From Leucosporidium creatinivorum (taxonomy: Eukaryota > Basidiomycota > Microbotryomycetes > Leucosporidiales > Leucosporidiaceae): a stretch of DNA of 64,000 nucleotides. Below, piece after piece: positions 19,478-52,144 of this stretch; the first letter of the stretch is position 1; each line of letters starts with the position of its first letter. The stretch covers positions 1,658,266 through 1,722,265 of the forward strand of contig BCKL01000002.1 in NCBI GenBank assembly GCA_001600635.1. The letters run 5' to 3'. A model generated the notes under the pieces. That model did not search any database, was not told the DNA's origin, and saw nothing but the letters and a program-made list of their open reading frames with translations. A program made the position numbers and the translations under genes.

Positions 19478-21933
19478 CTAGAATATGGTTTTCAAAGTCA
19501 TGGCGGTGAGAATGACTGACGAGAAGATGTAGACGACGTACTGGAGGCGAAGAGGGAGGTCAGCTCTCGTCTCGGCGCTCGCGAGGGAAGGGCGAGAAGG
19601 GTGAGAAGCGACCCACTTGCGCCAATATGTAGGCCGAGAGAAGGGCCGAGTTGTTGGCCTCGCCTTCGGGAGCGTACATCTGACTGAACGCCAGCTGTGA
19701 AGGGCAGATCGCGGGTCAGCGCCAGCGCCGAGCACGGTTCGAAGCGGCGAAGAGAGCGCTACTCACCTGGATCGTTCCCGTTGGCACGCAGGAGCAGTAT
19801 ATGAGAGCTTTGGAGGCGGAGAAAGTCAGCTATAGCTCGTCGAGCAGCCACCGAGACCACCGAGACCATTGCCGAGCTCGAGCAAGACTCACTGAACCGC
19901 AAGACGGCATTGTCCGCCTGCACCATACCGCGATGGACGAGCGCCTCGACAAAGAAGAAGCCGATGATGGGGAGTAGGACCACCTTGACGAGAGCCATGG
20001 CGCCTATGCTGGCGAGGGGAAGGCGAGAGATGGGTCGGGGGATTTCCATCTTGGCGATGCTGGAGCCGAGGACCGTGAGTCCCAGTGGTACACTGGCTGC
20101 TCCAACAAAAGTCGCGGTGTTGTAGACGAAGGAGAGGGGTGGTAGGCCATCGGGCGCCGTCGGGTGAAATGGGGATTCGTCGGTGTAGAGGAAGAGGGAC
20201 TTGAGTGTCGGAACTAAGGCGATGACGAGGGCCGAGAGTAGAGCAAGAGTGGGTGGTGATGCGAATCCTTTGAGAACGCTGAAGACGGAGTGCAGGACTC
20301 GTACGAAGGCCGAAGGATGGTTGCAGCGCGAGGAGGGGGAGAGGGAAGGGATGGGCTCGAGAGCGGAGAAGTCGGTGTCTTGTGGGACAGTAGAGCGAGT
20401 TGGAGACGGCCGGCGTGTTTCGATGGCATCTCGGTCGGCAAGGGAGGTGGAAGCTGCAGGGACTGAGAGCGTGAGCGGCGTCGAGCGCTCGGCCGAAAGT
20501 CAAGACTCACACCCCTTGCCCTCCTTCTCTCGCCGCATGACTTCTTCCATAGCCCTCGCCATATCGATAGCCTCCTCCTCCTTGTCCTCCATCTTATCCT
20601 TGCCCTTCTCCTCCTCCAGTTCCCAAGCCATCGGCTTCCCCTTCCGTAGTCGGTTCGCCCACTTCCACAATACTCCCCACTCTCCTGCTTCATATCGCCT
20701 CTCCATCGAGACATCTATCCTTGACGGCGAGTCGTAGTCCATTCGGACGCAGCGTAGACCTGTGCTGGGCGAGATAAAGTCAGCCTTCGTTGTCTCTTCA
20801 TTGCTCGGCGCCCAAGAGACAGGGTCTACAAGGGCTCGAGCGTGGCTAGCGAAAGACGTATTGTAAAGGGAACATTACGAGTTGGTTGGCGAGGATTAGT
20901 ATTGCTATGCAGGATATAGCGAGAGCCTCGTCGGTCGTGCCGTTGAAGGGTGAAGCCATCGCAAGGGCGCTGATCACCGCTGTAGGTAGATCTCTAAGAG
21001 GGAAGATGAAAGCAGGAATCAATCTGTGGAGCTAGAAACTTGTTTGGGACCGCCGTGCAGTGTAACTCACCCCCTTGAAGCAGAAAAGGCGCCGAGGAAG
21101 TCAGCTCGGTTTTCGGCGCACGCTCCGAGGCAGCCTGCGAGACCACTTACCAATTCGAGAAAGCGTAGGCAGCAAAGATACCATATCGGAAACGTCTTGG
21201 CGTTGCTGTTGTAGCTCTGCGAGGCGGGGGAGTAAGTCAGTGTGGATCTCGGCGATGGGGGTCGGTCGAGCGAGCTGCCATCTTCCAGCTCTCACAGTCA
21301 GGACGAGCAGGCCTTCGGTCGGAGGGACGGCTCATCGCTATCTGTACAAGGTCGCTTACCTTGCGATCCAGCCCATCGCGCACGACAGTCCTTGGTAGAA
21401 GAAAGCCGTAAGGAAGAGCGGTCCGAGCGCCGAGATGTTGTCGTGGTTGAGCGCTGGTACCATCTTGCTCCACAGTAGACATGGTAGAGTCATATTGAGG
21501 ATGAGCACCGAGACTGCTCGTGTGCCAGAAGCTGGGAAATGGCCCGTTCTGGTGAGGAGAAAGCCAATGCCTGCGGTTCGGTCGAGATGCAGGCCGTCGA
21601 TGGTAGATGTGAGAGAGGAGGTCGAGTTGAATATGTGGGAGAGGGCCGAGGGAGGTTGGGGTGCAGATTGAAAGGAGCAAGGTCAGCCCACGGCGGAGAG
21701 AATGAGACGCAGGCAAAGCGGGCGAAGCGGCTCGACTTGCCTGCAGGAAATGCAACACGCAGCAGCGGCTTCACACTCAGAGTCAGCGTATGTCCTCGCG
21801 GCCCAGCTCCGCCTGCCTCCAGAGCCCTCGTCGCTGCTCCTCAGCCCCCGCGTGGGCGACCCTTCCTTGAGCAGCGAAAGCTCACCTTGACTGCAAGCCA
21901 GATGATGACATTGGGTGCAGGTGTCGAGCTCAT
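19478..21933 (-). CDS. Auxin efflux carrier / PIN-like membrane transport protein
   Basis: The start at 21933 gives MSSTPAPNVIIWLAVK, then PLLRVAFPA-GIGFLLTRTG, a classical Mem_trans (PF03547) opening with hydrophobic helices (VSVLILNMTLPCLLW, LFLTAFFYQGLSCAMGWIAR). The conserved FSNWGDLPTAV motif follows, a central hydrophilic loop (MDYDSPSR onwards), and the C-terminal helix bundle (ALLSALVIALVPTLKSLF, TFVGAASVPLGLTVLGSS, VVLLPIIGFFFVEAL, ALIYCSCVPTGTIQLAFSQM). It ends IFSSVILTAMTLKTIF. Fungal members are ER/plasma-membrane proteins of unclear substrate. The second intron has a GC donor (CCTGCAG|GCAAGT near 21742). WGD is assembled through a 3-nt exon at 21071-21073. The junction between about 20770 and 20890, around LANQLVMFPL and the MDYDSP exon, could not be resolved in frame with canonical sites. 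Confidence 0.9.
21071..21073 (-). other. Predicted 3-nt microexon (GGG) in the PIN-like transporter
   Basis: The upstream exon ends AAT TG and the intron 21074-21150 starts GTAAGT, has a GAGCTGACTT branch and ends TTCAAG. Three bases GGG follow, then GTGAGTT starts a second intron (20995-21070) ending CTCTTAG. The next exon begins AGATCTACC. Joining TG+GGG+AGAT gives TGG GGA GAT, that is W-G-D, the conserved motif of the family. Skipping the three bases gives TGA, an immediate stop. Both flanking introns have the normal size for this genome (77 and 76 nt). Confidence 0.7.
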
Positions 21934-50825: not shown

Positions 50826-52144
50826 CTACTTTCCCCCAGCAGACCCTCTCCGCCCTCCACTCCCCTCCATCGGCGAGGTCTCCTTCCTTGCAGAAAGGGC
50901 AAAGCTCGAGCGCGGGTCCCACCAGTGTTCGTTCATCGGCTTCTCGAGACTCGTTCCCTCCTCTCCGACCCTGCTGTCCCCGAGGTTGGTTCTCGCCGCC
51001 TCTCCAGCCGAGGTGGAAGCGATCGCCGAACTTGCTTCTCCTCGTTCGTAAGCCACGGTGTACGGCTCGGGGATGATGACGTTGTGCTCCTTGCCTTCCT
51101 CATCTTGGTTCCGAGCGCCTCCCGGTAACGCGAGCAAGGGGGAGTGACGGCGTCGGCGAAGGACGAGGAAAATGGAAAGGAGGATCAGGCCGACGAGGAG
51201 GACACCGCCGACTACACCTCCCGCTGGGATGTGCTTGATGTCAGTGACCGCCTCGATGAGTGGAATAGTTGAAGGCGCACCGATGGCACCAGCGTTGACC
51301 TTCTTCCCAGCTGGAGCAGCAGCAGTAAGCCCCGACTTGTTCGGCGCCGAGCTCGGAGCAAACGAGCTGACGCTGTCGGTCGCAGAGCCCGATTCCGAGC
51401 TAGACTGCGAGAGTATGTAGGTTTCTGTGGTTGTGAGTGTGCTGACGGGGATAGAGGTGGGCTGTCCCAGAGCGTTGGTAGTAGGCGAGAAAGCTGCTCG
51501 GCGAAGCAAGGGAAGTGTCGTCAGCGCCGAACAGGCACAGATTCAGGACCAGAGGGGGAAGCTTACAGGTCCCAATCACATTGACGATAAAATCTGAGCA
51601 GCAAGCAATTTGAATCAGCGACTGCTGAGCTACTGCAACAGCGAGAGAGACCCGAAGCTCACAAGTCCCTCCCCCCTCGTCCACGATCCCACCTCGAACA
51701 GTCTCGATATAGTCCGTCGCGGCGGGATCTAGTCACCTCTTACAATTAGCAAACACCTCTCCACCAGCTGCAGGACCACTCACTGGTTCCCCTCCCCGGC
51801 AGCGACGTCTGAGTCGGCAGCCCCTCCAAATTACTCCACTCCGTTGGCGCCACGAACCGACTCACCACCGTCGCGTCCACGATATCGATGTGATCCTCCG
51901 CATGTAGTGAAGGCTGTCCCGTGTACAGCGTAAACGTCTCCCCAGCGGGGAGGGTCGTATCGATTGGAATCGGCGCGACGTCCGTTTGGTCCACTACGCT
52001 GCCTGAGGCGGTGTAGAGGGTTAGGTAGGGCTGGAGGAGGCTACCGGAGATGATGAGATCCCGCTTGAGAAGGGAGGGGGCGTTCCCGCGCCTTCCCGGG
52101 GGAGGGAGAGCGAGCGGATTGGCTGGTTCGGCGAAGGCGGGCAT
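50826..52144 (-). CDS. Single-pass membrane protein, member 2 of a tandem trio
   Basis: The first in-frame ATG is at 52144 (MPAFAEPANPLALPPPGRRG). A dibasic site follows in NAPSLLKRDLIISGSLLQPY. The ectodomain has a beta-type start shared with member 3 (KRDLII, LPAGETFTLYTG) and a linker FIVNVIGT, then a Ser/Thr-rich stalk. One helix, GGVVGGVLLVGLILLSIFLV, is followed by LRRRRHS. The cytosolic tail ends GRRGSAGGK. Exons are joined by three introns (for example the one ending TAG near 51730 before PAATDYIETV). There is no N-terminal signal peptide. If membrane-inserted, the single helix must act as the targeting signal with the N-terminus outside. Confidence 0.74.

Follow-up and report, generated by a model that had tools for sequence, protein, structure and literature searches.

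A predicted 3-nt coding exon within the conserved NWGDLP motif of an ECM3/PIN-like transporter gene of Leucosporidium creatinivorum

A stretch of 64,000 nt from the genome of Leucosporidium creatinivorum (here called the window) carries, on its minus strand, a gene for an ECM3/PIN-like transporter of the Mem_trans family, in which three bases, GGG (21073–21071), very probably constitute a real and constitutively included coding exon. Two GT-AG introns bracket these bases. Intron 4 (21074–21150) has the donor TTG/GTAAGT, a branch-like GCTGAC and the acceptor CTTCAAG, and intron 5 (20994–21070) has the donor GGG/GTGAGT and the acceptor CTCTTAG. Upstream, exon 4 (21151–21216) ends with TTC TCG AAT TG at position 21151; downstream of intron 5 the sequence is AGATCTACC, and exon 6 (20862–20993) starts there with A/GAT CTA CCT. 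The microexon thus supplies the last base of the tryptophan codon and the first two bases of the glycine codon of the NWGDLP motif, and the spliced product, TGG GGA GAT CTA CCT, reads W-G-D-L-P, or S-N-W-G-D-L-P together with the end of exon 4. Microexons are taken here as internal exons of up to ~30 nt between two introns with usable splice sites; GGG has 3 nt and lies between two GT-AG introns of 77 nt each. The original prediction had described canonical introns around GGG and a W-G-D restored by its inclusion, and both are indeed present in the sequence, on the minus strand. The sizes given for the two introns were 77 and 76 nt, of which the first is right and the second is not, since both are 77 nt; the interval given, 20995–21150, stops one base short of the end of intron 5 at 20994.

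The gene model consists of 11 exons and 10 introns, runs from 21933 to 19478, and encodes 496 residues with no internal stop. Exon 1 (21886–21933) contains the start codon and MSSTPAPNVIIWLAVK, and resembles the corresponding part of P0001, the closest relative described below. It is followed by exon 2 (21741–21768), a 28-nt exon encoding PLLRVAFPAG, and by exon 3 (21360–21570). Exons 4 and 6 are defined by both the gene model and the parses discussed below; the latter encodes G-D-L-P at its start and ends with FPL-CA. The remainder of the protein is encoded by exon 7 (20511–20761), exon 8 (19893–20462), whose acceptor is one of four options that keep the frame, exon 9 (19767–19807), exon 10 (19617–19694), and exon 11 (19478–19540), which ends at a TAG stop. 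All of these features lie on the minus strand.

The Pfam family PF03547 (Mem_trans) matches residues 14–479 at 98 bits, compared to a cut-off of 25.7, in a version of the protein that differs by one residue at the exon 8 junction. The same family matches all 24 members of our profile A1. A protein search returned 85 relatives. The best of these, P0001, is an L. creatinivorum protein annotated as an auxin efflux carrier, which aligns over its full length with 72% identity to the first query and 74% to a later one. Most of the next-best relatives are named as other genera of the Microbotryomycetes. No PDB sequence was found with profile A1 at E-values up to 0.01, no DNA-level relative in another species was found in the viral contig and genome contig collections (one scan each with P0001), and a short-ORF search with 73 residues gave no candidate.

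The six columns of the NWGDLP motif are present and ungapped in 76 of the 85 relatives, and the other nine do not include the region. Among the 76, the motif is exactly NWGDLP in 49, and a glycine occupies the third place in 71. At the protein level, P0001 carries SNWGDLP. The database model of P0001 itself looks mis-joined in two places, around SALGRSSSRPSSTKACLARWEW and FPLQYTGADLNFTGLRC, with a shifted frame and with an apparent intron end read as protein; the second place coincides with the position of the AT-AC intron predicted below.

We enumerated the possible parses from exon 4 to the NQL of exon 6, allowing GT or GC donors with AG acceptors and no more than two introns, none shorter than 40 nt. 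The products were scored with a family profile that comprised 73 of the 85 relatives, after removal of 12 rows that were fragmentary or distant, and did not contain the query. The 1,781 parses included 236 that stayed open and kept the frame, and the one that uses GGG as an exon between introns 4 and 5 ranked first at 91.4 bits. The runner-up, at 74.0 bits, likewise uses GGG, but with an acceptor inside intron 5. An NWGDLP-type motif in the N-terminal half of the protein was spelled, among the parses tried, only with the GGG exon. A single GT/GC-AG intron across the motif leaves six open parses, the top one of which (55.9 bits) has a poor GC donor and loses the motif. When single introns with any end dinucleotides were scanned (12,246 junction pairs, 488 open), one with TA…TT ends gave NWRDLP at 86.0 bits; these ends are implausible, yet the score is only 5.4 bits below that of the GGG parse. 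The ranking and the conservation of the motif thus back, at the level of a prediction, the original proposal that this PIN-like transporter gene contains a 3-nt exon.

The inner acceptor of the runner-up parse, CCACAG (21024–21025, minus strand), deserves separate consideration. Its use would insert LIPAFIFPLR into the motif while keeping the protein open and in frame, and it scores above the outer acceptor of intron 5 (74th versus 24th percentile). Intron 5 could therefore be spliced to this site sometimes or always, with GGG still used as an exon. We consider this highly improbable, and the least probable of the alternatives discussed here: the insertion would break a motif that is ungapped in every one of the 76 relatives that contain it, and the resulting intron of 47 nt falls at the short end of the introns predicted heuristically in the window. 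Occasional use of CCACAG would, in any case, be compatible with a constitutive GGG exon and the outer acceptor.

An arrangement of this kind rarely arises by chance in the local sequence. Dinucleotide shuffling of the stretch that separates exons 4 and 6, repeated 20,000 times, produced the strict pattern [ACT]AG-GGG-GTRAGY once and the loose pattern NAG-GGG-GT 83 times. Across both strands of the 27.7-Mb genome (63 contigs), AAGGGGGTRAGT occurs 13 times, compared to 8 for a backward-read control. The donors of introns 4 and 5 fall at the 53rd and 70th percentile, respectively, of 74 heuristically predicted introns of the window, and both are thus ordinary to strong. The heuristic introns have a median length of 85 nt on the plus strand (34 introns) and 66 nt on the minus strand (53 introns), and reversed controls found 13 and 7.

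The acceptor of intron 4 is less typical. It is an AAG, a minority acceptor, and by inspection the first AG after GCTGAC. Its score of −1.79 bits is below those of all 74 introns, a result that is built in because only YAG acceptors were used to train the matrix. AAG acceptors are found in three of the ten introns of the gene model. In a looser count over the window, 8 of 90 branch-like RCTGAC motifs had AAG as the first AG behind them, versus 5 of 19 in the reversed control. Intron 5 does not contain CTGAC.

Exons of this size do not appear to be a general feature of the genome. The pattern GCTGAC-N5..33-YAG-N1..9-GTRAGT was counted 108 times (control, 43), versus 160 (control, 57) for the equivalent pattern with N10..18, so that no genome-wide excess of 1–9-nt exons is seen with a pattern which requires YAG and is blind to a GGG exon with an AAG acceptor. 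The GGG exon is therefore an isolated rarity at best, rather than one instance of a wider programme.

Introns 4 and 5 stand in phases that make the protein dependent on all three bases. Omission of GGG creates a TGA at the junction, as had been predicted, and recomputing the product from the model places this stop after 117 residues. Retention of intron 4 leads to a stop after 118 residues, and retention of intron 5 to one after 119. We infer that each 77-nt intron, with its own donor and acceptor, would be recognized as an intron, and that introns 4 and 5 would be removed one after the other, since a 3-nt exon is too short for factors to occupy its two sites simultaneously. Whichever intron left first, the other would keep a complete donor or acceptor beside GGG. 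As the site of the remaining intron would still be usable, GGG need never be recognized as an exon. Its inclusion would preserve the frame and write W-G-D, while skipping it or retaining either intron would halt translation at once. Unproductive mRNA of this kind would be cleared by nonsense-mediated decay. Because skipping and retention all give early stops, constitutive use is likelier than a switch, and the premature stop produced by skipping is easier to reconcile with splicing noise than with a second product.

The original prediction had proposed an on/off switch. In a regulated switch of this kind, inclusion of GGG would yield the transporter, and controlled skipping would yield an unproductive mRNA that lowers its level. 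The TGA after 117 residues is what such a switch would use, and a precedent for regulated inclusion in a fungus has been published, the glucose-dependent 20-nt microexon of Trichoderma Xlr2 (PMC11121469). Nothing in the parses, splice sites and intron phases that we examined suggests regulation, however. The premature stop upon skipping follows from the intron phases alone, and both donors have the strength of ordinary sites or better. We thus do not follow the original prediction of an on/off switch and regard it as very unlikely, although it stands first among the alternatives. Were it correct, GGG would be the smallest fungal switch exon known to us, in a gene that would also carry a U2-type AT-AC intron.

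Two other junctions of the gene are non-standard. Intron 6 (20762–20861, minus strand, 100 nt) is predicted to be an AT-AC intron, with the structure ACA/ATACGT…GCTGAC…CCCAGCAC/AGG. With no restriction on the end dinucleotides, this reading ranks first among 9,316 junction pairs (110.0 bits, next pair 107.4 bits), and its AT…AC ends are predicted to give the correct protein, FPLQGLR. A shift by one base, to TA…CA ends, ties with it and produces the same protein. Among the candidates rejected at FPLQ/GLR, the best GT/GC-AG parses reach 101.4 bits and require an intron length of 23 or 32 nt; if the donor is left free and the acceptor is AG, the score rises to 107.2 bits, below the 110.0 bits of AT-AC. 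Of the 85 relatives, 23 contain FPLQG, and 64 match the looser [FW]P..G. Of 288 back-translations for P0010, 12 are compatible with CA/ATA and CAC/AGG; for P0001 the figures are 12 of 24 and 4 of 32. These counts must be weighed against the wide latitude of the genetic code. In a paralogue on another contig (C14, see below), the corresponding FPFRG is uninterrupted.

We lean towards assigning intron 6 to the U2 type. U6 RNA was found in the genome, and U12 and U6atac RNAs were not found there in searches run without a positive control. The usual 5′ end of U1 is ACTTACCTG. Two U1-like matches of equal score, below the gathering score, lie ~2 kb apart in opposite orientation (L021 and L022; G000:C17:49102-49278 and 51041-51217), and ACTTACCTG was not found on either strand of these loci.

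The other non-standard junction is intron 2 (21571–21740, minus strand, 170 nt), with the donor CAG/GCAAGT, the best of 16,653 junction pairs. The best protein, at 133.6 bits, is common to several one-base shifts, and we read the intron as GC-AG because GC…AG is the usual form among these equivalent shifts. The best GT-AG pair gives 118.8 bits.

The presence of GC-AG and AT-AC junctions in the same gene could suggest an assembly error or a decayed gene, in which the true motif would be encoded by a single exon or with one ordinary intron, or in which the gene would be non-functional. Without the AT-AC intron, no plausible canonical junction was found at its place, and one intron alone interrupts the motif in the C14 paralogue, both of which would fit such an explanation. 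However, the full model is open over 496 residues and 74% identical to a relative, and a small base error would not create two introns with separate donors and acceptors. The AT-AC junction yields FPLQGLR, with which the P0001 and P0010 proteins are compatible, though the code leaves much freedom. An error or decay seems very improbable to us, slightly behind a regulated switch and ahead of splicing to the inner acceptor.

The same genome contains five matches to PF03547: two are pieces of the window gene, two are on contig C18, and one is on C14. The C14 paralogue is ECM3-like and is located on the minus strand at ~196100–194500. For a 98-residue piece of it, P0028 is the nearest protein (73% identity), and its identity to the window gene is 53%. 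As a control, the same enumeration at its motif gave 693 parses, of which 170 were open, and the winner has a single GT-AG intron (196123–196029, 95 nt) and scores 88.8 bits versus 74.8 for the next. This intron interrupts the same tryptophan codon, AAT T/GTGAGT…GATAG/GG GGT GAC GTG CCT, for A-N-W-G-D-V-P. The enumeration therefore finds one intron where one suffices. As the match is a real paralogue, it raised our already high confidence in the microexon by a small step.

The phases differ, being phase 1 for the C14 intron and phase 2 for intron 4 in the window gene, so that their positions are one base apart; the two introns likely share descent. There is no second intron at this place in the C14 paralogue. 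Given this single ordinary intron in the tryptophan codon, the microexon probably arose when a second intron entered 3 nt downstream of the older one. The exon after the C14 intron begins with GGGGTGAC, and the window gene continues after intron 4 with GGGGTGAGT, in which the GGG microexon is followed by GTGAGT, the donor of intron 5. Old bases encoding G-D, GGTGA, may have supplied the start of that donor, and the likeness of GGGGTGAC and GGGGTGAGT is partly forced by the codons and the donor consensus. Another possibility is that the second intron was lost in the C14 paralogue instead of gained in the window gene. Alignment gives no evidence that intron 5 was copied from intron 4, as their local alignment score of 35 was reached by 160 of 500 shuffles.

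Further features of the paralogues were noted. By inspection, the C14 paralogue (L053/L003, G000:C14, minus strand, ~196123–195850) appears to contain another GC-AG intron, with the donor G/GCAAGT, just before VTLFPFRG. In a Mem_trans gene on C18 (L002/L004, G000:C18:274423-275118), the motif equivalent to NWGDLP is FQNSNSLP and lies in a single uninterrupted frame.

Gene finders easily overlook exons of this size, and conserved proteins are then annotated in truncated or wrongly joined form. In a genome of short introns such as this one, a 3-nt exon also bears on whether the splicing machinery there recognizes introns rather than exons. The C14 paralogue and the window gene offer a before-and-after pair for the origin of a microexon. 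Should RNA confirm all three, a single gene would combine a 3-nt exon with a GC-AG and a fungal AT-AC intron, and would represent a compact test case for splice-site tolerance.

Among known tiny exons, that of mouse Ncam has the same length as GGG, 3 nt (PMC8042270). It belongs to an animal gene and is an alternative exon there, whereas skipping of GGG leads to a stop codon because of its phase. In the open-licence PMC literature, as covered by titles and the openings of abstracts, no 3-nt exon in a fungus was found.

The nearest counterpart is described in the CYP621A P450 genes of Fusarium, where a 1-nt exon is reported from 20 orthologues with 18 supporting SRA reads (PMC12940212). As in the window gene, a fungal gene there contains a tiny exon within a conserved motif (PKG in CYP621A) that is needed for both the phase and the motif, and the exon, a G, lies between AG and GT; the CYP621A exon sits within a long intron (PMC12940212). 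The two differ in that the window exon has 3 nt and not 1 nt, belongs to a basidiomycete transporter rather than an ascomycete P450, and is predicted, while that of CYP621A is supported by reads (PMC12940212). The same report also cites a 1-nt exon of Arabidopsis APC11 and exons of 2–5 bases in Arabidopsis, Drosophila and humans (PMC12940212).

The microexon of Trichoderma Xlr2 resembles GGG in being a fungal microexon whose absence alters the protein product (PMC11121469). It is 20 nt long, is part of a transcription factor gene, and its inclusion is described as shown to depend on glucose (PMC11121469). AT-AC type II introns are described as spliced by the U2 spliceosome, and AT-AC introns as far less common in fungi than in either animals or plants (PMC7072748). 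Intron 6 of the window gene, as predicted, resembles them in its AT…AC ends and its U2-like donor and branch sequences (PMC7072748). The rarity attributed to such exons in the original prediction is tempered by the published exons of 1 nt in Fusarium (PMC12940212) and 20 nt in Trichoderma (PMC11121469). With fungal microexons, even one of a single nucleotide, already published, the predicted GGG exon belongs to a type of gene structure that is rare yet already known.
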